Virus record (IMG/VR): IMGVR_UViG_3300028559_000073
Coordinates: 1-43,574 of that record
Length of the DNA stretch: 43,574 bases
Direction: 5' to 3' (one strand)
From: a virus
The position numbers and the translations under genes were made by a program. The notes beneath the pieces are model-generated. The model did not search any database. It was given only the letters and a program-made list of their open reading frames with translations, and was not told where the DNA came from. Positions 11,127 through 24,089 of this stretch are shown here, one piece after another; the first letter of the stretch is position 1, and each line of letters opens with the position of its first letter.

Positions 11127-12515
11127 ATGGCATTTACAATAATTAATACTAGCGATACACTTGAACAAATGCGAGTTAAGTTAAACAACTTAACTACAAA
11201 TGATTTTGGTGACCCGTCTTTATTACCAGGAGCTGGATTATCGGCTACTTCTATTGTAGGAGCAGTTATTGAAATTGCAGGTGTTGCTTTTTCTGCTGCA
11301 GGTTGGACAATTAGAGATTCAAGTTCTACAATTCAAGTTATAGGTGCTGGACAAACTTTAGATGTTGTAGGTACATCAAATCAAATTAATGCTGTAGTAA
11401 GTTCACCTGACACTTTAACTTTAAGTCTTCCAAATACAGTAATTATTAATACACAAGCAGATATTAGTACAATATCAATATCTTCAGGACTAATTACAAG
11501 TTCAACAGGTGCTATAAGTTTTAGTAATGAAAATTTATTAACGACAGGTACATTAGGTGCAGGAGATACAACAGTTACATCTTTAAATTCTTCAGGTGCC
11601 ATATCAGGAACAACAGGTACATTTACCGGTGCCATATCAGGAACAACAGGTACATTTACCGGTGCAGTATCAGGTACAACAGGCACTTTTTCTAGCACAA
11701 TAGAAGGAACAAGTTTAAATTTAACTTCAGGTGGTATTGTTTTTGAAGGTTCTACAGCAGATGCTTTTGAAACAACATTAAACGTTGTTAATCCTACTTC
11801 TGATAGAACAATAACAATACCAAACGTTTCAGGTACTGTAGTTACAACTGGAGATACTGGCACAGTTACGAGTACAATGATAGCTGATGGCACGATAGTA
11901 AATGCTGATATAGCTGATGGTACGATTAGAGCTGCTAAATTAAATTTATCAGCTGATACGTTAACAGTAAATACTTTAAATGCTACAACAATTACAGGTT
12001 CAGGTTCTACGGCAACCACAGTTTCTTTAACTGCTGATAATACTACAGCAGCTTCTAATTTTATAACCTTTGCTTCAGGAGCAACAGGTTCTCAAGCTTT
12101 AAAAACAGACACAGATTTAACATATAATCCTAGTACAAATGTTTTATCAACAACAGCTGCACAAGCACAGTATGCCGATTTAGCCGAAATTTATAAAACA
12201 GATAAAAATTATAGTATAGGTACTGTTGTAATGATAGGTGGTTCACAAGAAGTAACAGAATGTTTTGTAGGTTATAGAGCATTAGGTGTTATATCTGAAA
12301 AACCTGCTTTTTTAATGAATGCTAAAGCAGAAGGCCAACCAATTGCATTAAAAGGCCGTGTTTTAGTCAAAGTAACTGGTGATATTAAAAAAGGCGATGA
12401 GTTAGTTGCAGGCAACGGTGGTTATGCAACAAAAGTAAGCGATGAATTTAATAAAGTTTTTGCTATAGCATTAGAAGATAATGAAAAAGGCCTAATTGAG
12501 GCAGTTATACTATAA
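11127..12515 (+). CDS. Tail fibre protein with peptidase-G2-like C-terminal domain
   Basis: A 462-residue protein. After an N-terminal ~75-residue domain, residues about 155-190 are three 11-residue tandem repeats (GAISGTTGTFT type). Residues about 205-280 (FEGSTADAFETTLNV, TSDRTITIPN, TSTMIADGTI, IRAAKLNL) are nearly copied in the fibre gene at 26262. The C-terminal ~115 residues (AQYADLAEIYKTD, GTVVMIGGSQEVTE, GVISEKPAFLMNA, IALKGRVLVKV) match the phage fibre domain related to peptidase G2/intramolecular chaperone regions, which in some fibres trimerise and self-cleave. I cannot see whether cleavage residues are kept. Last ordinary virion gene before the modification block. Confidence 0.75.
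   Translation: MAFTIINTSDTLEQMRVKLNNLTTNDFGDPSLLPGAGLSATSIVGAVIEIAGVAFSAAGWTIRDSSSTIQVIGAGQTLDVVGTSNQINAVVSSPDTLTLSLPNTVIINTQADISTISISSGLITSSTGAISFSNENLLTTGTLGAGDTTVTSLNSSGAISGTTGTFTGAISGTTGTFTGAVSGTTGTFSSTIEGTSLNLTSGGIVFEGSTADAFETTLNVVNPTSDRTITIPNVSGTVVTTGDTGTVTSTMIADGTIVNADIADGTIRAAKLNLSADTLTVNTLNATTITGSGSTATTVSLTADNTTAASNFITFASGATGSQALKTDTDLTYNPSTNVLSTTAAQAQYADLAEIYKTDKNYSIGTVVMIGGSQEVTECFVGYRALGVISEKPAFLMNAKAEGQPIALKGRVLVKVTGDIKKGDELVAGNGGYATKVSDEFNKVFAIALEDNEKGLIEAVIL
11595..11693 (+). repeat. Three in-frame 33-bp tandem repeats
   Basis: The 33-base unit starting GGTGCCATATCAGG and ending ATTTACC occurs twice identically (11595-11627 and 11628-11660), then a third diverged copy (11661-11693). 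Each encodes 11 residues of the fibre, GAISGTTGTFT or a variant. Identical adjacent copies suggest recent slippage or recombination that lengthens the fibre shaft. Confidence 0.85.
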
Positions 12516-12539: not shown

Positions 12540-12992
12540 ATGTTAATTGAAGCACTAAATGATGAATTAATATCTTATACAAGATACGAAAATAATCAAA
12601 TAATTTATATAGATAAAGAAGGCAAAGACTATAAAGTTAAGAATGAAATAACTTATAGTAATTGGGTAAAAAATTATAAAAACATTCCTCATATAAAAGT
12701 TGAAGGATTAGAAGATAATAATTATCATTTACAATTATTTAAAGATTATGATTTGAATTTTAAAATGAAAAATGTGCATCTATTTTATAATCAACTAGGC
12801 GGATTTTCTTTTCCTGAACACACAGACGATATAAACGTTCTATTATGTGTTATAAAAGGTAGTAAAAAAGTTTTTGTAGAAAATTATCCCATAATAGTAA
12901 ACGAAGGTCAATCAATATCAATACCTAAAGGTGCAAAACATAAAGTTGAAAGTTTGCCTTTCACGTGGGCATTAAGTATAGGATACAAATAA
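12540..12992 (+). CDS. Cupin/JmjC-like putative Fe(II)-binding protein
   Basis: A 150-residue protein with a C-terminal double-stranded beta-helix. Residues 94-96 give H-T-D, followed by strands VLLCVIKGSKKVFVENY; GQSISIPKGAKHKVE (His134) matches cupin motif 2. The HxD...H set is the facial triad that binds Fe(II) in JmjC and 2OG oxygenases; an obvious 2OG-binding Arg after the distal His is missing, so oxygenase activity is uncertain. First gene of the 15-gene block; its stop overlaps the ATG of the next gene (TAATG). It could oxidise the product of the radical-SAM enzymes or bind a metal or ligand. Confidence 0.65.
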   Translation: MLIEALNDELISYTRYENNQIIYIDKEGKDYKVKNEITYSNWVKNYKNIPHIKVEGLEDNNYHLQLFKDYDLNFKMKNVHLFYNQLGGFSFPEHTDDINVLLCVIKGSKKVFVENYPIIVNEGQSISIPKGAKHKVESLPFTWALSIGYK

Positions 12993-14029
12993 TGAATTGG
13001 ATGTTTTATATAAAGACAACAGAAACTTGCCAATTAAATTGCAAACATTGTTTTACAAACGGCATAAATGGTGCTAAAATTTATTTTAATCCTATACAAA
13101 CCATTGATTTTATAAAAAAATTTAGACATCATTTTAATAGTGAAAAAGATTCTATACATTTTGAGTTTCACGGTGGCGAACCTTTTTTAGCTCCTGTATC
13201 ACATATGAACAAAGTATATGATGAGTGTAAAGATTTGTGGAAAAATAGAACCTTCGGTATTACGTCAAATTTAGTATTTAAATTAAAACAAGAACATTAC
13301 GATTTTATAAAAGGGCCATTAAATAATCGTATGGGCACAAGTTGGGATCCTAAAATAAGATTTGAAAATGATAAACAATATAATTTATGGGAAAAAAATG
13401 TAAAAGATTTACTATTAAAAGGTGTTACTATTAGATTGTTTATAAGTGTAACAAAAGACACTATCAATATAGAACCTATAACACTATTAAAGTGGATTAA
13501 AGAATTAGGTGTACAAGAAGTGTCTTTTGAAAGATTGACAGGTAACGGTAATGCAAAATTACATCCTGAAATATTTCCTGATAATATAGAACAAGATAAA
13601 TGGTTTTTAAAAATGCACCATCAGTCAAAAGAATATGAATGTAGAAGTTGGTTTGATAATGATACTTTAGAGGTTATTTACAGTAAATTTGAAACAGGTT
13701 TTTTAAAGGGTGGCACTTTTTGTAGAGATTGTGAACAAAAAATATTCACGTTAAATGCTGACGGAACCATATCAGGATGCCCTAATTCAGCTCCTGAGTT
13801 TCAATTTGGACATATAACCGACGATATATTAACTGTTATAAATAGTCCCATTAGAATAGAAAACATCGCTTGTGAGCGTGCAAGAAACCCTATATGTTTT
13901 TCTTGTGAAGTTTTTGAGTTCTGTGGAGGTGATTGCCACCAACTTGCTTGGCAAGGAGATATATGTGGTGCACCTAAAAGTTTGATGAAAGAATTAAAAT
14001 TGGGAATTAAATATGGTAACATTAACTAA
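12992..14029 (+). CDS. Radical SAM/SPASM enzyme 1
   Basis: A 345-residue protein read from the ATG overlapping the cupin stop; an in-frame GTG further upstream is less likely. Cys13, Cys17 and Cys20 (CQLNCKHC) form the CxxxCxxC site for the SAM-cleaving 4Fe-4S cluster, and GGEP (61-64) is the SAM-binding motif. The C-terminus is a clear SPASM domain: Cys244, 247, 263, then Cys302-x2-Cys305-x5-Cys311-x3-Cys315 and Cys325, for auxiliary clusters. This architecture is that of peptide- and protein-modifying maturases (anaerobic sulfatase maturase/RiPP maturase type). It overlaps by 17 bases the gene for the Cys-His-x-Ser protein, making that product the prime substrate candidate. Substrate and chemistry are inference. 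Confidence 0.88.
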   Translation: MNWMFYIKTTETCQLNCKHCFTNGINGAKIYFNPIQTIDFIKKFRHHFNSEKDSIHFEFHGGEPFLAPVSHMNKVYDECKDLWKNRTFGITSNLVFKLKQEHYDFIKGPLNNRMGTSWDPKIRFENDKQYNLWEKNVKDLLLKGVTIRLFISVTKDTINIEPITLLKWIKELGVQEVSFERLTGNGNAKLHPEIFPDNIEQDKWFLKMHHQSKEYECRSWFDNDTLEVIYSKFETGFLKGGTFCRDCEQKIFTLNADGTISGCPNSAPEFQFGHITDDILTVINSPIRIENIACERARNPICFSCEVFEFCGGDCHQLAWQGDICGAPKSLMKELKLGIKYGNIN

Positions 14030-14585
14030 TCCAGTTACGCCGCAAAATATAGTTGATAGATTTGCAGATTTTGTATTAGCAGCTGCAAATGCAGGAATAG
14101 TATGGGGTACAAATAATCTACCTTTTCCAGAAATGCCAGGCGCTACATACGCAGGAACTATATCAGGAACAAGTATCACTGCAACAGGAACCACTATAGG
14201 CACAACGGGCAATACAATCACCGCTGCTACCATAAGATCAGTTTTAGAAACTGAAACTGCTTTATATACAAATATTAGACAACAAAGAGCAATATTAAAC
14301 GTAACAGGTGGTGGAGGAAATACAGGTTCAAGGCCAACACCAGGAATTATTTTTGATCAAACAGCAGTTGCCCATTTAGATACCGCAAATAGAGCAGCCA
14401 TTGGTGCCGTTGCAAATGCTAATGTAACCACAGGTCAGAATGTTGATGACACAAATTTAGAAACATATTTTACAAATTTAACAGCAGCTTATACTGCAAT
14501 TAGAACCACAACAGTAACAACCCAAATAGATGTGTGTCACGCAAGTTGCCACAGTTCTTGCCACAGTTCGAGAGGAAGAAGATAA
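14013..14585 (+). CDS. Protein with C-terminal CHxS-repeat tail; candidate modification substrate
   Basis: A 190-residue protein. Residues 1-45 (MVTLTNPVTPQNIVDRFADF...WGTNNLPF) look folded; residues 45-70 are Thr/Gly/Ser-rich like fibre sequence; about 75-165 are helical. The last 17 residues are VCHASCHSSCHSSRGRR: three Cys-His-x-Ser repeats (Cys175, 179, 183) then RGRR. These are the only cysteines in the protein. The spacing is what a RiPP-like core or metal-binding tail would show. The His-x-Ser rhythm recalls HxsA-type His-Xaa-Ser peptides, which are also paired with radical-SAM maturases, but no homology is shown. The start overlaps radical-SAM gene 1 and the stop overlaps the next ATG. 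It may be a virion protein whose tail is modified, or a carrier for a cleaved peptide. Confidence 0.75.
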   Translation: MVTLTNPVTPQNIVDRFADFVLAAANAGIVWGTNNLPFPEMPGATYAGTISGTSITATGTTIGTTGNTITAATIRSVLETETALYTNIRQQRAILNVTGGGGNTGSRPTPGIIFDQTAVAHLDTANRAAIGAVANANVTTGQNVDDTNLETYFTNLTAAYTAIRTTTVTTQIDVCHASCHSSCHSSRGRR

Positions 14586-15277
14586 TGAACATAATTGAAA
14601 CAATAGCACCAATATCAATAGAAAATTTAAAAAAACATTTCACGGATAAAGAAGTTTTTTATTTAATTGACTATAAGAATAGCGAGTTAAAAGGTAAAAA
14701 ATTATTAACTTATTTAAGTAATTTAGATTTACCTGCTGATATAAAAGAACCAGATTTAGAATTAGTTAAAGAATATTTACATAGTGTTACTTTGGTTAAT
14801 ATAGAGTCATTAGAAAATATTATTATTGATATATTATTAGAATATAAAAATATTTTAAAAACTGAGAATTACAAGAATTTTATAAATGAAAATACTGATA
14901 TAATTTCTAAATGGTCTGATAAATTAGATAGCTTAAGTATATTTAATATGTACATTGTCAATTCTGACGAATTTAAAGATTATGCTAAAACATTTCCAGC
15001 AGATGACACAAATAGTTTAGAAGGTGTAAATTTTGTAAGTTTACTAAAACAAGAAAGGTTTTATCTTTTTTTTAATAAACTAAATAATAACATAAAATTT
15101 TATACACGATATTTTGATGATTATATGTTTAGAGGCAAAAACCTTTTTGAATTTTGGTCTACACCAAAAAATCCTATGTTTTTACTCACTTGGGGTATAA
15201 CGCAAGGAAAAGGTAAAGAGTATATAGAAGCTAAAATAAAAGATAAGGAAATTATAAAAAATGTTGCATCTATTTAA
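14585..15277 (+). CDS. Unrecognised protein A of the radical-SAM block
   Basis: A 230-residue protein started at the ATG overlapping the previous stop (TAATG) with an AGAGGAAGAAG ribosome-binding site; a longer in-frame start inside the CHxS gene is rejected. It is mostly helical, acidic/lysine-rich and cytoplasmic in character, with no Cys pairs, HxD or transmembrane segment. A conserved-looking aromatic patch lies near the C-terminus (YTRYFDDYMFRGKNLFEFW). I do not recognise the family. Its place directly after the candidate substrate suggests a binding partner, leader-recognition factor or chaperone, but this is only context. Confidence 0.6.
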   Translation: MNIIETIAPISIENLKKHFTDKEVFYLIDYKNSELKGKKLLTYLSNLDLPADIKEPDLELVKEYLHSVTLVNIESLENIIIDILLEYKNILKTENYKNFINENTDIISKWSDKLDSLSIFNMYIVNSDEFKDYAKTFPADDTNSLEGVNFVSLLKQERFYLFFNKLNNNIKFYTRYFDDYMFRGKNLFEFWSTPKNPMFLLTWGITQGKGKEYIEAKIKDKEIIKNVASI

Positions 15278-16364
15278 TAAAACATATTTAGAACTTGACG
15301 ATAAGATAGAATTAAATTTTGACCGAGTTGTTATTTCAAATATAAACGGAGTGAACATATCGGATTTTTTAGATAAAGTTATACAAGGAAAATTAATAAA
15401 ATATGGTAGAAATTTAGATGATTTAAATTTCACAAATTTAATAACCGAATTATCTTCTTATGGGCAAACTTCTAATAAAAAAATTATAATTTATTGCGAC
15501 AAAACAAACTATATTAAGTTTTTAGTTAAATGGATTAAAACAATATTACCATCTATAAATTTAGAAAGTTTTAACCGTTTTGTTAATCTAACGGTTTACA
15601 AAGAAAAAATAACTCAAAATACTCGACTGCAATCTGTTGTACCATTAAAATTAGATACTTTAAAAGAAGGACTAGGAGATTTAACTGAAAGCTTTAATTC
15701 AGAAACGATAACAGACGAAAATAGAAATTCTATTAAAAATTTGAATTTAAATTATTCATATGAGTTTTTATTAGCTGATTATTTTAGTAATTCTACTAAT
15801 TACACTAACTCATTAAAAAGTGTATTACATTTATTTTTAAGAAGATGGTTAAAAGAAGCTTTCACTGATAATAGAGAAATGATATTATTAAACTTATTAA
15901 ATAAAAATTTTCAAACAACATTAGGATTTACAGAAAATGATTTAAATTTAAATTCTAATAATCCTATTTCAGGTGTTTCTTCTTTACAATATTATGCAGA
16001 TGAAACAATATGGAAACAAAATGAAAAAACAGGCATATATGACGTTTGCAATATAGAAAATTTATCACAAGAAAAAATAAATGGATTAAGAAACTTATTA
16101 AAAAATATTTATTTAAATGTTGAAGAAATGGAAATTAATAGAACATTGTTTAGCGCTTTTGATTATTTAGAACTAGCTGCTAAAGATACTATTACTGAAA
16201 CAGAAATGAATACGGTTTTAAATTTTGTAGTTCAAAATCCTTTTGATACTTGTTTAGTTTCAACATTTGATTTTCAAAATGTAAATTATGTTTTTTTACA
16301 TCACATATTAAACTTAAAGAGAGATAATAATATAGAGGCGCTTACTAAGTTTAGATTATTATAA
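15261..16364 (+). CDS. Unrecognised protein B of the radical-SAM block
   Basis: A 367-residue protein overlapping protein A by 17 bases. Residues 1-130 alternate beta and alpha (VVISNINGVNISDFLDKVI, KKIIIYCDKTNYIKFLVKW), a Rossmann-like or nucleotide-binding feel without a Gly-rich loop I can name. Residues 180-365 are helical. No radical-SAM or 2OG motif. It ends 7 bases before radical-SAM gene 2. Together with protein A it may form a substrate-handling complex; function unknown. Confidence 0.6.
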   Translation: MLHLFNKTYLELDDKIELNFDRVVISNINGVNISDFLDKVIQGKLIKYGRNLDDLNFTNLITELSSYGQTSNKKIIIYCDKTNYIKFLVKWIKTILPSINLESFNRFVNLTVYKEKITQNTRLQSVVPLKLDTLKEGLGDLTESFNSETITDENRNSIKNLNLNYSYEFLLADYFSNSTNYTNSLKSVLHLFLRRWLKEAFTDNREMILLNLLNKNFQTTLGFTENDLNLNSNNPISGVSSLQYYADETIWKQNEKTGIYDVCNIENLSQEKINGLRNLLKNIYLNVEEMEINRTLFSAFDYLELAAKDTITETEMNTVLNFVVQNPFDTCLVSTFDFQNVNYVFLHHILNLKRDNNIEALTKFRLL

Positions 16365-16371
16365 TATTAAA

Positions 16372-17424
16372 ATGCGTGAATTTTTGATTGATCCTAAAAG
16401 AGATCCTGAGCAAGAATACACCATACATTTATTTGAGTTTTGTAATTTAAGTTGTGCTTTCTGTTGGCAAAATCACCAAGATAAAATAGGCATAGACACA
16501 GTTTTAAACAAATTAGAACCTATTGAAAAACTTATAAGTAAAGAATTTAAAAATAAAATCACTTTAAACATAATGGGTGGTGAGGTATTTGCACCAAGCA
16601 TTTACACAAAAGAAATAAACGAAGCTTATAAGCAGTTATCATTAGGTATATCCCAAATAGCAAAAAAGTATAATAAGTTATTTTCATTGAATTGGGTATC
16701 TAACTTAGTTACTGATAAAAAAGGTATTGACCAAATAGAAGAATTATTAAAATACTCTAAAGATAACGATATTCCTGCAAGACTTACAACATCATACGAC
16801 CCAAGAGGCCGTTTCAATAAAATACAGTTTGAAATATTTAAAAGTAATGTAGATTATTTTGGTGATAGAGTTACTTGTTTCTCTTGTTTATTAACTAAGC
16901 CTAACATAGAACATTATTTAAATAACGGTGATGAATATTTTGATTATCTTTATAACAGTGGTAAATACATTTACTTTGATTACTATATGCCAGATGAACA
17001 CGCCAAGTTTAATATGCCTAGTGATGAATTACTATTAAAATTTTTTAAACATTGTGTAGATAATTACCCTCACGTGCATCCTGTAAAAGATTGGATTTTT
17101 AATAAAAAAAACTATTCTTCTTGTAGAGTGAGTAAGTTGGTTTTAGCTGATGGTACTTTATGTATGTGTGGTAATTTAGTACAAGATAAAAAGTCTTTAA
17201 GTATGTACAAATCGCCTATTAAACGTATGGACAATAGTATTATTGAAAATAAGTTTTTAGAAAAATATAATTGTGTTTCTTGTGAGTTTTTAGATAGATG
17301 TACATTAGGTTGTTTTATGAATCACGATTACAGATATAGAGAGGAGTTAGATGAGTGTGTCTATAAACTTACGCACAGATATATCGAAGATGTACGACTA
17401 CAAAGAAACTACATCGCCAGTTAA
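16372..17424 (+). CDS. Radical SAM/SPASM enzyme 2
   Basis: A 350-residue protein. Cys24, Cys28, Cys31 (CNLSCAFC) form the radical-SAM motif and MGGEVF (68-73) is the GGE-type SAM-binding loop. The C-terminus has CRVSKLVLADGTLCMCGN, then Cys301-x2-Cys304-x5-Cys310-x3-Cys314 and Cys329, the SPASM pattern for auxiliary iron-sulfur clusters. Sequence between motifs differs strongly from the other radical-SAM proteins nearby, so it is not a recent duplicate. Likely modifies a peptide or protein; substrate unknown. Its last 74 bases overlap the next gene in another frame. Confidence 0.87.
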   Translation: MREFLIDPKRDPEQEYTIHLFEFCNLSCAFCWQNHQDKIGIDTVLNKLEPIEKLISKEFKNKITLNIMGGEVFAPSIYTKEINEAYKQLSLGISQIAKKYNKLFSLNWVSNLVTDKKGIDQIEELLKYSKDNDIPARLTTSYDPRGRFNKIQFEIFKSNVDYFGDRVTCFSCLLTKPNIEHYLNNGDEYFDYLYNSGKYIYFDYYMPDEHAKFNMPSDELLLKFFKHCVDNYPHVHPVKDWIFNKKNYSSCRVSKLVLADGTLCMCGNLVQDKKSLSMYKSPIKRMDNSIIENKFLEKYNCVSCEFLDRCTLGCFMNHDYRYREELDECVYKLTHRYIEDVRLQRNYIAS

Positions 17425-17923
17425 AATAGATATATCAAACGTTGATGTTGTAATGGACACTTTACCTATAAGTTATCCATATTGTCCTAGAATATGTGAT
17501 AGACAAGCCCATTTTCTTATTTGGTGGGGAACAAAAGAAACTGATCCTGATATTTACGAAGATACTATAAAAAATAAAAATGAAGAACAGTGGGTTACCT
17601 GTGAAGAAAATTGGAAATTAGAAAAAGGTATTGTTATGTTACACATTTACGAAAAAGAAATTATAATAGGAGGTGTAAAAACTTCAGGTGTTTTGAGAAA
17701 ACGACCTAGAACAAGTATTAGAAAACTTATAAGACAGATGTATTCTGATATAATTAAAACTTTTTCTCATTACAAAATTATAATACCTACAGGTTCTTAT
17801 ATGGAACAATTACATTTAGTAATGAATCAAATGAGAATACAAAAAGAACCTTACCATAGAGAGATAATGCAGCAATTTGGTTTTAAAAAACAAGATAAAT
17901 ATTATATACGTTATGCAAATTAA
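17351..17923 (+). CDS. Unrecognised protein C (possible acetyltransferase-like C-terminus)
   Basis: A 190-residue protein. The start at 17351 overlaps radical-SAM gene 2 by 74 bases but has a good GAGGAG ribosome-binding site 4 bases upstream; ATG at 17390 is the main alternative. Residues 40-50 hold a Cys-x3-Cys (YCPRICDR), then a WWGTKETDPD stretch. The end (IKTFSHYKIIIPTG...MQQFGFKKQDKYYIRY) vaguely resembles the last strands of GNAT acetyltransferases, but no acetyl-CoA loop is clear. Function unknown. Overlapped by the next oxygenase gene by 11 bases. Confidence 0.6.
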   Translation: MSVSINLRTDISKMYDYKETTSPVKIDISNVDVVMDTLPISYPYCPRICDRQAHFLIWWGTKETDPDIYEDTIKNKNEEQWVTCEENWKLEKGIVMLHIYEKEIIIGGVKTSGVLRKRPRTSIRKLIRQMYSDIIKTFSHYKIIIPTGSYMEQLHLVMNQMRIQKEPYHREIMQQFGFKKQDKYYIRYAN

Positions 17924-18491
17924 ATTTATAGATACTATTGAAATTATTGATAATCTTATTGAAGATAAAAATTTAATCAATGACCTGAAAACGGAAAGTA
18001 CCATTCCTTCTACCATAAAAGGACAAGACATTTTTAATTTAACAGCTCCTCAAAAAAGATTTTACGAAATAGCGAGTAAATTGGTTATAAATTACTGTTT
18101 TCAAAATAATATTAATTTTGATAATATGAGATTATCAAACTTTCAAAAAGGTAATTTACAAAAATATAATCAATCAAAAGTTTCAAATCATCTATATGAA
18201 CCACATCACGATATGGTTGAAAGTTCTTTTATTACGGCTATATATTATATAGACAGTGATTATGATGATAAAAATTGGACAGGAGGAGAATTAACAATTT
18301 ATAAAAATTTAACTTTTGCTGAATACCCAAATAATGCAATAAACATACTTTCTAAACAAAATAGATTAATTATATTTCCAGGTTTTTTAACACATAGAGT
18401 AAAACCTTATTTTGGCGAAAAGCCTAGAACATCCATAGTATTAGGATGGGCCGTAAAAGACGCTGAAGAAACATCTCCAATAATTATATGA
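17913..18491 (+). CDS. Fe(II)/2-oxoglutarate-dependent oxygenase 1
   Basis: A 192-residue protein using the ATG at 17913, which overlaps the previous stop; an upstream in-frame ATG at 17877 would only add a tail read through the neighbour. The double-stranded beta-helix core shows His98-x-Asp100 (EPHHD), AIYYID, WTGGELTIY, then RLIIFPGFLTHRV with His161 and PRTSIVLGW with Arg172, a complete HxD...H...R set for Fe(II) and 2OG. The pattern fits the prolyl-hydroxylase/2OG-FeII_Oxy superfamily. It shares ATGA with radical-SAM gene 3. Likely hydroxylates a protein or peptide side chain; substrate unknown. Confidence 0.82.
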   Translation: MQIKFIDTIEIIDNLIEDKNLINDLKTESTIPSTIKGQDIFNLTAPQKRFYEIASKLVINYCFQNNINFDNMRLSNFQKGNLQKYNQSKVSNHLYEPHHDMVESSFITAIYYIDSDYDDKNWTGGELTIYKNLTFAEYPNNAINILSKQNRLIIFPGFLTHRVKPYFGEKPRTSIVLGWAVKDAEETSPIII

Positions 18492-19555
18492 AAGAAGATA
18501 ATATAAAAAAGTTAATTGATTTTTCTTTGGAAATAACCAACGGATGCCAGTTTAATTGCACAGGTTGTAGTGTAGACAAATCAGGTAATAATTGGCCTAC
18601 TGATAATGAGTTTAATAAAATAATGCTTTTAATTGATGATCTTAAAAAAAACGAATTTAGACCTATGAATTTACAAATAGGGCCTACAGATGTAATGACG
18701 AGTTCAAATGTTGATAAAATTTTGACTGATGAAAGAATTAAACAAATAACTAAAAAATTTTTTAAGACGGCAATAAATTGTGCCTTTTTAGATCCTTTTG
18801 ACGAAAACTATGAAAAGTTTGGTAAAAAACTCAACTGGTTATTAGAAGGTGGTTTTGTTAAATTTATAATACCGTTTGAAGCTTATCATATAGATAATAA
18901 AGATTATGTAAACAGAATTAAAAAACGTATTAAAATAACTTTAGATAATATGCCAGACGTAACACATACTAAAACTTATTTAATAATGAATTATGAATCT
19001 ACATCTATATATGACCGTACACAAAATAAAAATTTAACTGAAGAACTTATATTAAAAACACACGAATCGGATTTATTAAAAGGTTTTGATGTAGGGTTTA
19101 ATCTAGCACATTCACGTTTAAACCTACAAAAACCAGAAAATGCAAAAGGATTTTATGACTCCGTAATGAGTCTTAAAAAATATTTTACGAGCGCTAAGTT
19201 AAAATATGGAGATAAGGTTGATGTATATGATTTAATGCCACACGAAGGAACAGATTGGGACATTTTTTATAAATCAGGCAAACTTTATATGACACCATTT
19301 TTCCTTGAAGGTGTGGCCAGTTTTGATGAAGAATTTGAAGTTAAAAAAAATTGGACCTTTGCAGGACTATATGAAACATATTTAGAAGGTTTTTTAAATC
19401 AAGTTGATTGGGCTCATAAAAATAAAGATTGTCAAGATTGTCAATTCGTGCATATGTGTGCTGAAAGAGGTATACACTCTTTAATGAAAATAATTAAAAC
19501 AACTAATTGTATAAGTCCTATTAAATCACTCGAAGATAAAGTGATTTGGAGATAG
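18488..19555 (+). CDS. Radical SAM enzyme 3 with C-terminal auxiliary-cluster Cys
   Basis: A 355-residue protein overlapping the oxygenase stop (ATGA). Cys20, Cys24 and Cys27 (CQFNCTGC) make the CxxxCxxC site. The usual GGE loop is replaced by QIGPTDV, a divergent SAM-binding segment. The C-terminus carries Cys315-x2-Cys318-x5-Cys324 and Cys341, a shortened SPASM/twitch-like auxiliary cluster region. It is clearly diverged from enzymes 1, 2, 4 and 5. It ends 2 bases before radical-SAM gene 4, so the two may act as a pair. Substrate unknown. Confidence 0.82.
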   Translation: MKEDNIKKLIDFSLEITNGCQFNCTGCSVDKSGNNWPTDNEFNKIMLLIDDLKKNEFRPMNLQIGPTDVMTSSNVDKILTDERIKQITKKFFKTAINCAFLDPFDENYEKFGKKLNWLLEGGFVKFIIPFEAYHIDNKDYVNRIKKRIKITLDNMPDVTHTKTYLIMNYESTSIYDRTQNKNLTEELILKTHESDLLKGFDVGFNLAHSRLNLQKPENAKGFYDSVMSLKKYFTSAKLKYGDKVDVYDLMPHEGTDWDIFYKSGKLYMTPFFLEGVASFDEEFEVKKNWTFAGLYETYLEGFLNQVDWAHKNKDCQDCQFVHMCAERGIHSLMKIIKTTNCISPIKSLEDKVIWR

Positions 19556-19557
19556 TA

Positions 19558-20658
19558 ATGGATCTTATCATCAAACCTACAGAAGCTTGTAATTTTAAAT
19601 GTACTTTTTGTTCTAGTACTAAAATCGCTATGCACAAAAGTGATTTGTTAAATCACAATTATATTTTTCGTTTTTTAAAAAGATTTCCTCATACAAAAAC
19701 AATTATAGTTAATGGTGGCGATCCATTAATGGTAGAACCAGATTATTATTGGCAGATTATTAATTGGTTAGATGAACACAATTATGATACATCAATATCA
19801 CTTACTACCAACCTATGGCCGTTTTATAAGAAACCTAAGAAATGGGCAAGTCTATTTAATAACGATAGAATAGGAGTTAATACATCTTTTCAATATGGCG
19901 GTGGCCGTTTAAAAGGCGATTACTCAGAATTTACAGAAGAAGATTTTTGGAAATGTTCAGATACTATGTTAGAATATTGTGGTTATCGGCCTGATTTTAT
20001 TGCAGTCATTGTTCCTGAAAATGAACATCTAGCACTAAAAAATGTAGAGTTAGCTTATAAAATGTCTGACGGTAGAATACCTTATGGTACAACACACAAC
20101 TTATTAAAGACAGGTAAGATAGGTGTAGAGTGTAAATTAAACTATGCTATGTCAAGTGGCGCACAAGATAAACCTTATTTGTTAAGTAAGATATATCAAA
20201 AGTATGTAGAGATATGGGAACAAAATTTATATCATTGGGAATTTAATACCAAACAAATGATGAAAAGAGTAAGAGGTGAACACACTCTTTGTCCTCAAAA
20301 TAGAAAGTGTGATGAAGGCATACGTGCATTAAATCCTAGTGGAGATTATTATTCTTGTGGTGCTTTTGGTGACGATAAAGATAAGTCAATTGATTTTGAT
20401 AGAGAAATGAATGGTGAATTTTTTAAACCATTACAATCAGATATGAATTTATATAGTATGAAAAGAGCTTGTTTCGAATGTCCTATGTTTAGTATATGTA
20501 ACGGTTGCAGAAAAACGATTAAAGATTTTAAAAAACATAATGTTGTAGAAGAACATTGTAAAATTATGAAAAGTATTGCACCAAAAGTATTGATGGCAAA
20601 TGGTCTAAATAATATTGAGTTAACGCCTTATATTGATGAAAGTGTAAATGTTGGATAA
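19558..20658 (+). CDS. Radical SAM/SPASM enzyme 4
   Basis: A 366-residue protein starting at ATG 19558, two bases after the previous stop; an in-frame TTG 12 bases upstream is disfavoured. Cys11, Cys15 and Cys18 (CNFKCTFC) form the radical-SAM site; NGGDPL (52-57) is the SAM-binding loop. The C-terminal third has LCPQNRKCDEG, ALNPSGDYYSCGAFG, CFECPMFSICNGCRK and a final EEHC, a full SPASM domain. Overlaps the next oxygenase gene by 11 bases. Expected to modify a peptide or protein side chain; the exact bond formed cannot be read from sequence. Confidence 0.87.
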   Translation: MDLIIKPTEACNFKCTFCSSTKIAMHKSDLLNHNYIFRFLKRFPHTKTIIVNGGDPLMVEPDYYWQIINWLDEHNYDTSISLTTNLWPFYKKPKKWASLFNNDRIGVNTSFQYGGGRLKGDYSEFTEEDFWKCSDTMLEYCGYRPDFIAVIVPENEHLALKNVELAYKMSDGRIPYGTTHNLLKTGKIGVECKLNYAMSSGAQDKPYLLSKIYQKYVEIWEQNLYHWEFNTKQMMKRVRGEHTLCPQNRKCDEGIRALNPSGDYYSCGAFGDDKDKSIDFDREMNGEFFKPLQSDMNLYSMKRACFECPMFSICNGCRKTIKDFKKHNVVEEHCKIMKSIAPKVLMANGLNNIELTPYIDESVNVG

Positions 20659-21169
20659 TTTTTTAACACAAGGTTATGTTATAGAAAATGACAAAGACGT
20701 TTTTAAATTTATAAATTTAGATAACATTAAATGGATAGAAGATAAAAATTTAGGTTTACAAATTTGTAAAAAAGAAAAATTAATTAAAAATCAATTATTG
20801 GACACACAAAAATATTTAGGTGAAAAATATGTAAAACTAATTGACAAAAATTATAAATTATCTAAAAAAATAGATTTAGTAAACGGCATAGATAGAGATA
20901 CAATGTTTTGGCATAACGATTTAATTGAAGGACCTAACCTTTGTATATTACTGTATTTTGACACTATGAATAATAATATTGGCGGAGATATAAGTTTTAG
21001 AGAAGCCTTGACAAAAAATAAACTCGTAAAACACTATCCAACACAATATGATATATTAATAATGAATCAAAGTAAAAAATATCAACATATTGTATCTCCA
21101 TTAAAAGTTAATTTACCCAGACGTGTTGCAAGTTTTAATTACTTTGTAGATGAAAGGTTAACAAAATGA
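20648..21169 (+). CDS. Fe(II)/2OG-type oxygenase 2
   Basis: A 173-residue protein. FWHND gives His89-x-Asp91; NLCILLYFD and GGDISFRE are core strands; YQHIVSPLK gives His147; LPRRVASFNYF gives Arg158/159. The set matches the 2OG oxygenase facial triad plus 2OG-binding Arg. It is clearly related to the product of 21751: both have WHND, a one-strand-shorter core and a short C-terminus. Overlaps neighbours on both sides, so it is translationally coupled within the block. Confidence 0.75.
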   Translation: MLDNFLTQGYVIENDKDVFKFINLDNIKWIEDKNLGLQICKKEKLIKNQLLDTQKYLGEKYVKLIDKNYKLSKKIDLVNGIDRDTMFWHNDLIEGPNLCILLYFDTMNNNIGGDISFREALTKNKLVKHYPTQYDILIMNQSKKYQHIVSPLKVNLPRRVASFNYFVDERLTK

Positions 21170-21744
21170 TCGAAGGTTTTAATAATTTATGGCCTACTAT
21201 TATATTTAAAGACATTATAAGCGATAAATTATTATTAAATGATGTAACAAATTATACATTATTAAAATATGGTCAAGATAATAAGGTGTCAGCAGATATT
21301 AAAGATGAAAATTTATTTGATGATAATTATTTTGACAATTTTAAAAATAATACAGTTATACCATCTTTTCAAAAATATTTACAAAAAACGATAGGTGTAA
21401 ATTTAAAAGACAAAAAATATAAATTAAGAGCGTGGTTGACAGGATATGGAGTTTCTTATTCTATGCCTAAACATAATCATTCAGGTTCACATCTAAGTGC
21501 TGTATTTTATTTACTATCTGAAGATAAACATTTAGGAGGATCTTTAGTAATAAATGACCCTCGTTTTAACGCTAATAGAGGTTATACTCCTGAATTTAAT
21601 CCTTGGTTTGAAAAAAAAATTTTTATTCCAAAAACAGGCGATATTTTAATATTTCCTAGTTTTGCTTATCATAGTGTTGATACATATTATGGAAAATTAA
21701 GGTTAGCTATGCCTGTTGATTTAATATTTTATAATGAAGAATAA
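21166..21744 (+). CDS. Putative 2OG-Fe(II) oxygenase 3 (2OG-FeII_Oxy_5-like)
   Basis: A 192-residue protein. MPKHNHSGSHLSAVFYLL gives His103-x-His105; GGSLVINDPR follows; KTGDILIFPSFAYHSV gives His169; RLAMPVDL carries Arg179. The HxH...H version with the SHLSAVFYL strand is typical of the putative 2OG oxygenase family PF13759, abundant in marine phages and cyanobacteria. A related gene lies at 36678. It shares ATGA with oxygenase 2. Substrate unknown; hydroxylation of a protein or peptide is the likely chemistry. Confidence 0.8.
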   Translation: MIEGFNNLWPTIIFKDIISDKLLLNDVTNYTLLKYGQDNKVSADIKDENLFDDNYFDNFKNNTVIPSFQKYLQKTIGVNLKDKKYKLRAWLTGYGVSYSMPKHNHSGSHLSAVFYLLSEDKHLGGSLVINDPRFNANRGYTPEFNPWFEKKIFIPKTGDILIFPSFAYHSVDTYYGKLRLAMPVDLIFYNEE

Positions 21745-21750
21745 TAAAAT

Positions 21751-22221
21751 ATGATTATAAAATCAAAAAAATTATTAAACGGAGTTTATAGTTTATATTT
21801 TAAAAATTATAACTTGAACAATTTAAAAAATACAAATAAAAATATTTTGAAATTATATTTATTAGAAATAATAAGTAATTTAAACTTAAAATTGATTGAT
21901 TTTGATGTGTGGAACGATAATTTAATGAAACAAGATAATAAAGTTATATTTAATTGGCACAATGATATGTCTAATAAAATAGATACTTTACTACTCATAT
22001 ATTTTACGGATAAAGTTTTAAACGAAAAAACAGGTGGACGAATTGGATTTAAATATAATAATATAGAAAAAATGTATAATATAAAATCTCATAGATGTTT
22101 TTTATCTAAACAAGATGAAAGACATTTACATAAAGTTGAAAGCGCAAAATTAAATTTTAAAAACAGAATTTGTGTCAGCGTTAGTTTATCTGGCTGGAAA
22201 GATTTACAACTAAATGAATAA
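21751..22221 (+). CDS. Fe(II)/2OG-type oxygenase 4
   Basis: A 156-residue protein. NWHND gives His70-x-Asp72, LLLIYFTD and TGGRIGFKY are core strands, HLHKVE gives His127 and NRICVSVSL gives Arg139. It is shorter than most family members but has the complete HxD...H...R set. Together with oxygenase 2 it looks like a diverged pair (shared WHND and equal spacing to GGxIxF). Starts 6 bases after oxygenase 3 and overlaps radical-SAM gene 5 by 8 bases. Confidence 0.72.
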   Translation: MIIKSKKLLNGVYSLYFKNYNLNNLKNTNKNILKLYLLEIISNLNLKLIDFDVWNDNLMKQDNKVIFNWHNDMSNKIDTLLLIYFTDKVLNEKTGGRIGFKYNNIEKMYNIKSHRCFLSKQDERHLHKVESAKLNFKNRICVSVSLSGWKDLQLNE

Positions 22222-23158
22222 AATAACTGTTTCTATAAATCCTAGTTACTTTTGCAATTTTAGATGTAATTTTTGTTATTTAACTTCTAAACAATTAGGA
22301 GATCAAAAACAAATACCTTTACCTATATTAGATAAAAAATTAAAAGAAATCAGTAAAGTAAGAATTATAGAATGGGTTGATTTATATGGTGGAGAAATAG
22401 GCGCTTTAAAAAAAGATTACTTTTACGGTCTTAAAGATACTATTCGAAAATATTATAAACATAAAATAAATATCATAACAAACTATTCTATGTTACACGA
22501 AGGATTTTTTAGAGATGATTATTATTTAAGTGTAAGTTATGATTTTGAAGCCAGAGAAAAATCTGACTTGGTGTATAACAATATGTTTCAAAGTACTGTG
22601 CCCATAGCAGTTTTAATATTAGCAAGTGAAAAGGTATTAAGTATGAATGTAGATGAAATGATACATAAATTAAATTTGTGTTCAAGTATTGAGAGTGTGG
22701 AAATAAAACCATATTCTATAAATCAGGCAAACAATCAACCTGTAACACATAAAGATTTTGAGTTGTTTGTACAAAAGTGGATTGAAAGTGATGTAAAGAA
22801 AAAATTTGATTTTATAAATGAGGGTAAAATAATTAATAGTTTAAATAAAAAATATAACGCATTTTCAAATAATCACGTTTACATAACACCTAATGGAAAC
22901 TTTGGCGTATTAGAGTTTGATGAAAATGATAAAGAATATTTTTTAGAGTTAAAATCTTTTAAAGATTATTTAAAATGGGCAGATAATGAACCATTAAAAA
23001 ATATATCTGACATTTGTAAGAGTTGTAAATACTATGGACATTGTTTAACGGAACATTATCGTTACGTAAAAGATTTAAATAACAGTTGTAATGGATATAA
23101 AGGACTATTAGATTACTATGATAAAAGAATGGAAAATCAGGCAAGCGTTATATCATAA
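22214..23158 (+). CDS. Radical SAM enzyme 5 with C-terminal auxiliary-cluster Cys
   Basis: A 314-residue protein, the shortest of the five. Cys14, Cys18, Cys21 (CNFRCNFC) form the radical-SAM site; LYGGEIG (57-63) is the SAM-binding loop. The C-terminus has Cys268-x2-Cys271-x5-Cys277 and Cys292, a reduced SPASM-like region preceded by an ITPNGNFGVLEF strand pair. Overlaps oxygenase 4 at its start and protein D by 41 bases at its end. Likely a peptide or protein modifying enzyme of this block. Confidence 0.85.
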   Translation: MNKITVSINPSYFCNFRCNFCYLTSKQLGDQKQIPLPILDKKLKEISKVRIIEWVDLYGGEIGALKKDYFYGLKDTIRKYYKHKINIITNYSMLHEGFFRDDYYLSVSYDFEAREKSDLVYNNMFQSTVPIAVLILASEKVLSMNVDEMIHKLNLCSSIESVEIKPYSINQANNQPVTHKDFELFVQKWIESDVKKKFDFINEGKIINSLNKKYNAFSNNHVYITPNGNFGVLEFDENDKEYFLELKSFKDYLKWADNEPLKNISDICKSCKYYGHCLTEHYRYVKDLNNSCNGYKGLLDYYDKRMENQASVIS

Positions 23159-23513
23159 GTTGAATAACGACCATACTGATGATTTAAAAAAGATTAAAAT
23201 AGAATTTTCTAAAGATATAATAGAAAATGCCATTCGATATTTTTATAATAAAAATATGGGATTTATATATCCTTCTAAAAGTTATGTAGTAGCTATATGT
23301 TATGCACACTGGTTATCAAAAGATTTTAAAGAAGATTTTATAGAATTATTAAATGATAAAGATTTACTTTATGGAAATGATCCATATTTTAAAACATATG
23401 ATGAAGATACATATACATATGATGAAATATTAAAAAAAATTACACCTTTTAATGAAAATAAAGGTATAATACCAGATATAAGAAATTATTATAATGTTGA
23501 ATTTTTTATATAA
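23118..23513 (+). CDS. Unrecognised protein D, last gene of the radical-SAM block
   Basis: A 131-residue acidic, aromatic-rich protein (YGNDPYFKTYDEDTYTYDEI). It is predicted cytoplasmic, with a helical N-terminus and no cysteine pair or HxD motif. The start is inside radical-SAM gene 5 (41-base overlap). The C-terminus ends just before a late promoter, closing the block. It could be a small partner of the enzymes or a separate phage protein; I do not recognise it. Confidence 0.55.
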   Translation: MIKEWKIRQALYHKLNNDHTDDLKKIKIEFSKDIIENAIRYFYNKNMGFIYPSKSYVVAICYAHWLSKDFKEDFIELLNDKDLLYGNDPYFKTYDEDTYTYDEILKKITPFNENKGIIPDIRNYYNVEFFI

Positions 23514-23747: not shown

Positions 23748-24089
23748 ATGGCAGCTGTAGCAAACCTATCAATAGACCAAGGCGCAACATTTACATCAGA
23801 TATAACAGTTAAGGATATTAATGGTAACGTATTTGATCTAACTGGTTATACGGCCGTTGCAAAATTGGCGAAAGGTTATTCATCTACAAGAACAAGAACA
23901 GCGATGACCACTGCTTTTGCTACAGATAGAACCACTGGAGTTTTAACGATTTCCTTAACGGCCGACCAAACGGCCGCATTAGATCCTGAAAGATATGTCT
24001 ATGACGTTGAAATAATCTCTAGTACTAACACGGTAACAAGAGTATTAGAAGGCATAATAACTGTGAGACCTGAAGTAAGTACCTCTTAA
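23748..24089 (+). CDS. Ig-like/BppU-N-like small structural protein
   Basis: A 113-residue beta-rich protein. The order IDQGATFTSDITVKDINGN, FDLTGYTAVAKLAK, TGVLTISLTADQTAAL and RYVYDVEII...VLEGIITVRPEV matches the immunoglobulin-like domain at the N-terminus of phage baseplate upper proteins (BppU-like). Such domains act as connectors in tail tips or fibres. It directly follows the 69-residue gene with no gap and lies upstream of fibre genes. Confidence 0.65.
   Translation: MAAVANLSIDQGATFTSDITVKDINGNVFDLTGYTAVAKLAKGYSSTRTRTAMTTAFATDRTTGVLTISLTADQTAALDPERYVYDVEIISSTNTVTRVLEGIITVRPEVSTS

Follow-up and report, generated by a model that had tools for sequence, protein, structure and literature searches.

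In the His-Xaa-Ser (Hxs) systems, a precursor with C-terminal H-x-S repeats (HxsA) is encoded beside paired radical S-adenosylmethionine (radical-SAM) maturases (HxsB and HxsC; TIGR03978, TIGR03977), and modification of the peptide has been proposed. Radical-SAM enzymes of the SPASM/twitch type abstract hydrogens from peptide residues, giving thioether, C-C or C-N links, epimers or oxidised residues, while JmjC/cupin and 2-oxoglutarate (2OG) oxygenases add hydroxyl groups to side chains, those of His and Arg included. Radical-SAM peptide chemistry has so far mostly been encountered in bacterial ribosomally synthesized and post-translationally modified peptides (RiPPs) and in cofactors. Here we describe a block of 15 genes, A to O, on the + strand (12540-23513) of a 43.6 kb virus contig, IMG/VR record IMGVR_UViG_3300028559_000073, hereafter the window, whose gene content is that of a T4-like myovirus (baseplate wedge, tail fibre, head-closure and sheath-related genes). 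In this block, radical-SAM and oxygenase genes accompany a gene, C, whose product ends in three Cys-His-x-Ser units (the CHxS tail). We consider it probable that the block is a phage-borne, RiPP-like pathway of post-translational modification, with the Cys/His/Arg tail of C, a baseplate- or fibre-associated virion protein, as its substrate. The genes are as follows.

12540-12992, + strand: A, cupin/JmjC-type protein with H94-x-D96...H134, a probable Fe(II)/2OG-type oxygenase (PF07883, E 1.2e-5, below cut-off)
12992-14029, + strand: B, radical SAM/SPASM protein 1, with 7 auxiliary Cys (TIGR04085, 32.5 bits against a cut-off of 27; phrog_1802, 1e-67)
14013-14585, + strand: C, CHxS protein of 190 residues, the proposed substrate, with a folded body (about residues 1-172) and a disordered tail
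14535-14582, + strand: tail of C, 16 residues (175-190), CHASCHSSCHSSRGRR, the proposed modification site
14585-15277, + strand: D, conserved partner of unrecognised fold (phrog_20767), present in both cassette layouts
15261-16364, + strand: E, unrecognised conserved protein of 367 amino acids
16372-17424, + strand: F, radical SAM/SPASM-like protein 2
17351-17923, + strand: G, unrecognised protein of 190 amino acids, a variable member
17913-18491, + strand: H, 2OG-Fe(II) oxygenase (PF13640)
18488-19555, + strand: I, radical SAM protein 3, with 4 auxiliary Cys; several paralogues in type-2 cassettes
19558-20658, + strand: J, radical SAM/SPASM-like protein 4; no other enzyme is as well conserved (identity with cultured jumbo phages 51-64%)
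20648-21169, + strand: K, 2OG-type oxygenase by its motif H89-x-D91...H147, R158 (PF13640 at E 0.042 only)
21166-21744, + strand: L, 2OG-Fe(II) oxygenase with H103-x-H105...H169 (PF13759)
21751-22221, + strand: M, K-like putative 2OG oxygenase, by motif and K-profile only
22214-23158, + strand: N, radical SAM protein 5, with 4 auxiliary Cys, universal in the cassette
23118-23513, + strand: O, conserved unrecognised protein of 131 amino acids (phrog_20737)

The preferred start codons of B, D, H and J lie at 12992, 14585, 17913 and 19558, respectively.

The cassette recalls the Hxs systems in that radical-SAM enzymes accompany a protein with H-x-S repeated at its C-terminus. The tail of C has H-x-S three times, but each time with an invariant preceding Cys; its RxRR end is fixed, and two of the Ser are replaceable by Asn or Ala. 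Unlike in the Hxs systems, the phage tail almost always consists of exactly three CHxS units ending in RxRR, with invariant Cys and Arg, and the phage cassettes carry 4-9 radical-SAM proteins plus oxygenases. In a scan of the NCBIfam models, C did not match HxsA at E<=0.1, and the HxsB and HxsC cut-offs were missed about tenfold (34.1 bits for B against 370, and 31.3 bits for J against 267.9). The nearest family likeness of B and J is with SPASM/twitch maturases of RiPPs (the ranthipeptide enzyme PapB, the dynobactin enzyme DynA and the anaerobic sulfatase maturase), which share the architecture of a CxxxCxxC core with auxiliary Cys clusters. The named radical-SAM RiPP equivalogs were not reached either, B scoring 46.1 of 340 bits with PapB and J 41.4 of 450 bits with DynA; as the scores with maturases of known RiPPs are 37-46 bits against cut-offs of 340-450, the cassette enzymes fall in none of these subfamilies. 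Their proposed substrate also differs: instead of a short peptide, it is a folded protein of the phage. As to the oxygenases, H and L match the 2OG-Fe(II) oxygenases of the phage phrog_81 type and the JmjC/cupin protein hydroxylases, and A, K and M keep the metal-binding motif; unlike those enzymes, several of them are fixed members of one cassette around one proposed substrate. The annotated cassettes of phages FLC6, S13/SURPRISE13 and Atu_ph07 comprise the same genes. In the available parts of the papers on FLC6 and S13, the cupin, radical-SAM and 2OG genes appear as list entries, and neither the CHxS tail nor the linkage of the genes is mentioned. Neither the CHxS motif nor a phage radical-SAM/RiPP pathway of this kind was found in the open-access literature, a search that did not extend to subscription papers and preprints. 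Judged from its genes, the cassette would work like a RiPP system; it fits no named RiPP class, its carrier would be a folded protein, and it has neither peptidase nor exporter. We take it to be a variant of radical-SAM/2OG peptide maturation, and there is a fair chance that it merits its own class.

The tail is far better conserved than the protein that bears it. In the window it reads CHxSCHxSCHxSRGRR, and the general formula is (C-H-x-S/N/A)x3-R-G/S-R-R-stop; Cys, His and Arg are invariant in all complete relatives found, while the bodies diverge to about 25% identity. Close relatives of C were found on 29 viral contigs, and a scan with the tail DNA pattern gave at least 119 matching stretches. 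The sequence CHxSCHxSCHxxRxRR-stop terminates 147 distinct open reading frames (ORFs), in four of which Asn replaces the second Ser, and 141 of 146 motif matches lie at the exact C-terminus, the remaining 5, located elsewhere, all being spurious. Since this pattern itself demands Cys, His and Arg, an unbiased test was performed on loci selected by J and on cultured phages, in which only three Cys in register were required. In this tail-independent selection, 57 distinct ORFs had Cys at -16/-12/-8, and every one of them ended exactly in CHxSCHx.CHx.RxRR, which is not due to chance. The Cys, the His, the three Arg and Ser -13 are invariant in this set, and Ser -9 and -5 are replaceable by Asn or Ala. 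Different codons are used at the invariant sites, so the tail is conserved at the protein level.

The AlphaFold2 model of C has a confident body and a last stretch of about 18 residues of low confidence (predicted local distance difference test score about 51). Searches with tblastn of C against cultured phages gave no match, the body having diverged too far and the tail offering too little sequence; the CHxS protein of the type-2 layout (see below) likewise matched nothing in phages. Comparison of the C model with the PDB returned nothing significant, and comparison with viral models retrieved its own family, including a 296-residue protein of Atu_ph07 (Foldseek E 1.2e-5, probability 1.00). 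A fold resembling that of C is also seen in three larger proteins (500-660 amino acids) of the uncultured phage Myoviridae sp. ctijX18 (BFVD A0A8S5USJ8, A0A8S5USJ7 and A0A8S5USV2). In one CHxS protein (L152:7832-8512), the tail is extended to 13 CH units, arranged in five blocks and followed by the usual RGRR.

The tail travels with its enzymes. The radical-SAM clades B, F, I, J and N, together with A, the 2OG oxygenases, D and O, accompany it on more than 100 metagenomic phage contigs and in cultured jumbo phages that infect Agrobacterium, Sinorhizobium, Burkholderia and Pseudomonas. A contig of 222,888 bp (L062) also carries the cassette. J, B and D each match the same seven cultured-phage records, corresponding to six phages: Atu_ph07 (two records), Phosso, SURPRISE13 (S13), FLC6, FLC8 and pPa_SNUABM_DT01. 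Five of these six showed the tail on direct reading; FLC8 shares the gene order, and its locus was included in the unbiased tail scan. RSF1 homologues are reported in the available part of the FLC6 paper. Two layouts were distinguished. In type 1, a single CHxS protein of 170-310 amino acids follows A-B. In type 2, there is usually a tandem pair of CHxS proteins of 124-140 amino acids, 3-16 bp behind a fibre gene, y; the A-B-J-N-O-F set is close by, together with several radical-SAM genes of the I type, and examples such as L038, L055, L081, L097 and L098 contain up to five or more I-type paralogues. When the flank was long enough, type-1 cassettes contained B in 72/75 cases, D in 64/68, F in 46/46, J in 33/34 and N in 30/30, and no CHxS contig with at least 3 kb downstream was devoid of radical-SAM genes. 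Conversely, 49 of the 55 loci selected by J with at least 6.5 kb upstream contained the tail. The six others (L310, L311, L312, L322, L329 and L330) have the reversed gene order of type 2, which places the CHxS pair past the retrieved flank: L321 and L323, with the same reversed order, show the pair beyond, and the contig of L310 contains the tail as L107. The first-pass annotation, made from the letters of the window, had held that enzymes scattered in related phages and unlinked to the CHxS gene would speak against a joint pathway on a virion or peptide product. In the related phages the enzymes are linked, every contig that extends far enough has the CHxS gene, and a joint pathway is well supported.

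Screening of 84,980 species genomes with the tail pattern gave 19 matches, 7 of them spurious. The 12 true tails all sit on metagenome-assembled bins, and these sequences are probably phage contigs. As species genomes yield only these 12, the cassette is essentially viral, and a bacterial origin was rejected on the same counts. Two dihydrofolate reductase (DHFR)-like genes lie inside the cassettes of Burkholderia phages (L033:7855-9032 and L035:7816-9029); in the available part of their paper, the FLC6 authors place them under nucleotide metabolism, and they may be cassette enzymes. In the Sinorhizobium phage Phosso, a second F-type radical-SAM gene (L032:15487-16404) is found about 4 kb past the cassette end.

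All 15 ORFs of the block could be confirmed, neighbouring genes overlapping or being separated by at most 7 bases, as first described. The same is true of the five radical-SAM genes with CxxxCxxC and a C-terminal CxxCx5C: all match PF04055 in the Pfam profile scan (E 2.8e-3 to 6.5e-7), and CxxxCxxC is kept in 107/111, 82/82, 92/93, 63/63 and 53/53 members of the five families. Seven SPASM-type Cys are conserved in B, F and J and four in I and N. With TIGR04085 (cut-off 27 bits) B passes at 32.5, and F (18.2) and J (23.5) fall short though their Cys pattern is kept. Each of the five groups forms one tree branch spanning very distant phages. The gene called cupin/JmjC-like, A, is indeed a cupin, with HxD...H in 97/97 relatives. 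Among the four proteins taken for 2OG-type oxygenases, H (37.1 bits) and L (40.2 bits) pass the Pfam cut-off of 27, and the assignment of K and M comes from motif and family profile only. One CHxS-tail protein and four unrecognised proteins, D, E, G and O, complete the list, as annotated. Relatives of solved structure were not found for B, H or L; J is weakly like MoaA and A matches the cupin fold only. A viperin/defence function of the radical-SAM proteins was rejected, the pVip match covering only the first 60-90 residues of the core at about 28 bits against a cut-off of 180. Searches and a fold comparison with the PDB, where its model had no significant match, gave no support for D as a RiPP recognition element or known domain. 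H also matches phrog_274, labelled DNA endonuclease V, and phrog_1644, labelled minor coat protein, which suggests that these two families are mislabelled or mixed.

Gene order and published proteomics connect C with the virion. The block lies between fibre gene y and a fibre-assembly-like gene (23748-24089, phrog_3304/BppU-like), and its G+C content is 0.23-0.31 compared with 0.31-0.37 in the near flanks.

11127-12515, + strand: y, fibre-like gene with a Peptidase_G2/chaperone-like C-terminus, a conserved neighbour of CHxS genes in other phages

CHxS genes directly follow y (3-16 bp) in 18/19 type-2 loci, and y is found at most 6 kb upstream in 38/49 type-1 loci; it was not found near the other 11 of these 49 complete cassettes. 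This linkage agrees with C being a virion protein. In Atu_ph07, 131 virion proteins were detected by electrospray ionization tandem mass spectrometry, encoded mainly by coding sequences (CDS) 31-76, 170-215 and 284-329 (PMC6102473). Counting genes in the record, with the head completion gp125, sheath gp132, portal gp198, prohead core gp204 and major capsid protein gp215 as anchors stated or implied in that paper, makes its CHxS protein AUZ94952 gp170, the first gene of the cluster CDS 170-215. The last gene of the cluster, gp215, encodes the most abundant virion protein (PMC6102473), and gp170 was likely detected in the virion too. The length of AUZ94952, 296 residues, is that of the Atu_ph07 match to the C model, and on this comparison of models the bodies of the two proteins are probably homologous. 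Most likely, C belongs to the baseplate/fibre region of the virion. The initial proposal of a modified virion or peptide product has thereby been narrowed to the C-terminal tail of C, which the Atu_ph07 data would place on the particle.

Late expression, also proposed at first, is supported only indirectly. Ten copies of the T4-type late box TATAAATA are present in the window, all on the + strand, and eight flanking genes have one 16-38 nt upstream of their start codons.

380, 3272, 23509, 24117, 27343, 32630, 33445 and 39965, + strand: late boxes TATAAATA upstream of start codons

No gene inside the block has an exact box of its own; all that precedes gene A is AATAAATA, which lies 15 nt upstream and differs from the box at one position. 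Late transcripts probably run on through the block. Related phages have other genes in the slot that separates the fibre region from P-Q-z, among them genes of the desaturase, TauD, Asp/Arg-hydroxylase and other radical-SAM types. Because different redox genes are held there, the slot is a variable island for redox or modifying enzymes, of which the CHxS cassette is one occupant. Such alternative genes (fatty-acid-desaturase-like, TauD, Asp/Arg hydroxylase, other radical SAM), with no CHxS gene seen, are present at L206:38-3271, L248:7631-8859, L196:5756-6517 and L204:3362-5133.

In the pathway that we propose, the folded body of C would stand in for a RiPP leader and the disordered (CHxS)3-RGRR tail would be the core. 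The universal radical-SAM proteins B, F, J and N and the oxygenase A would work on the unvarying tail residues (Cys, His and Arg) to give a shared core modification, to which the I paralogues and the 2OG oxygenases H, K, L and M might add phage-specific steps, with the two DHFR-like genes varying the modification in Burkholderia phages. D and O, almost always present, would be likely partners in substrate recognition or chaperones. The finished tail would remain on the particle as a chemically unusual tip, probably cross-linked or hydroxylated and possibly metal-binding. Adsorption, metal binding or hardening would be candidate purposes of such a tip, as would the host binding or receptor evasion suggested at first. 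By analogy, the invariant tail residues (three Cys, three His, three Arg) would fit radical-SAM/oxygenase chemistry.

Several observations weigh against this pathway. Enzymes are more numerous than 9-12 residues would obviously need, and D, E, G and O are unrecognised proteins. A PqqD-like recognition element was detected neither by Pfam in the block nor by PDB fold for D, and profile scans found no leader peptidase or exporter among the 15 genes, leaving a classical RiPP route incomplete. The presence of gp170 in the virion is deduced from a cluster boundary and a gene count. Finally, an unmodified Cys/His tail could simply bind metal. That the tail is loaded with metal and not covalently remodelled, the radical-SAM proteins building or inserting a cofactor, is unlikely. 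Invariant Cys and His at i, i+4 and i+8 would suit a metal stripe, and iron in phage tail fibres has been proposed in the Ferrojan Horse papers, but the invariant RxRR, the JmjC/cupin and variable 2OG oxygenases and the four universal SPASM/twitch-type radical-SAM enzymes would be left unexplained, and the cut-off of no known cofactor maturase family was reached.

We likewise regard as unlikely the release of the tail from its carrier as a free peptide directed at the host cell, at rival phages or at other bacteria. Cys-rich repeats beside radical-SAM/SPASM maturases do recall bacterial RiPP operons, and the 13 CH units of L152 recall multi-core precursors; yet the block contains no protease, transporter or leader-peptide hallmark, and the body of C is predicted to be a large well-folded domain, is linked to fibre genes and has a relative that, by gene count, opens a virion-protein cluster. 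The frequent proximity of y, and the redox enzymes kept in the slot by related phages that show no CHxS gene, would suit enzymes acting on y, on other virion proteins or on a small molecule, C being a mere carrier or a separate adhesin. This is very improbable, as the tail is the one invariant feature wherever these radical-SAM clades occur, and y can be missing from the vicinity of complete cassettes. The variability of the slot between y and P is also what an ordinary auxiliary-gene island would give, in which a fibre hot spot had by chance accumulated radical-SAM and 2OG genes that have nothing to do with one another; this can practically be dismissed, since very distant phages share these gene families, for the most part with their order, five separate clades are co-inherited, and the co-occurrence counts already contradict it.

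The CHxS cassette looks like a previously undescribed viral pathway that rebuilds one tip of the particle. More tentatively, it may represent a wholly viral class of protein maturation and not one borrowed from a bacterial RiPP class: a conserved multi-step radical pathway, in several distant phage lineages, equipping a virion tip protein with a non-standard group that derives from Cys, His and Arg, is cross-linked and may chelate metal, and on which adsorption or penetration would depend. The cassette enzymes may perform new reactions on these residues, and the pathway is directly testable in cultured phages. If the proposal is correct, about 11 kb of phage DNA would be devoted to the 16-residue tail of one virion protein, and virus particles would carry a chemistry not predictable from translation of the genome, with consequences for phage host recognition and for structural work that models standard residues only.

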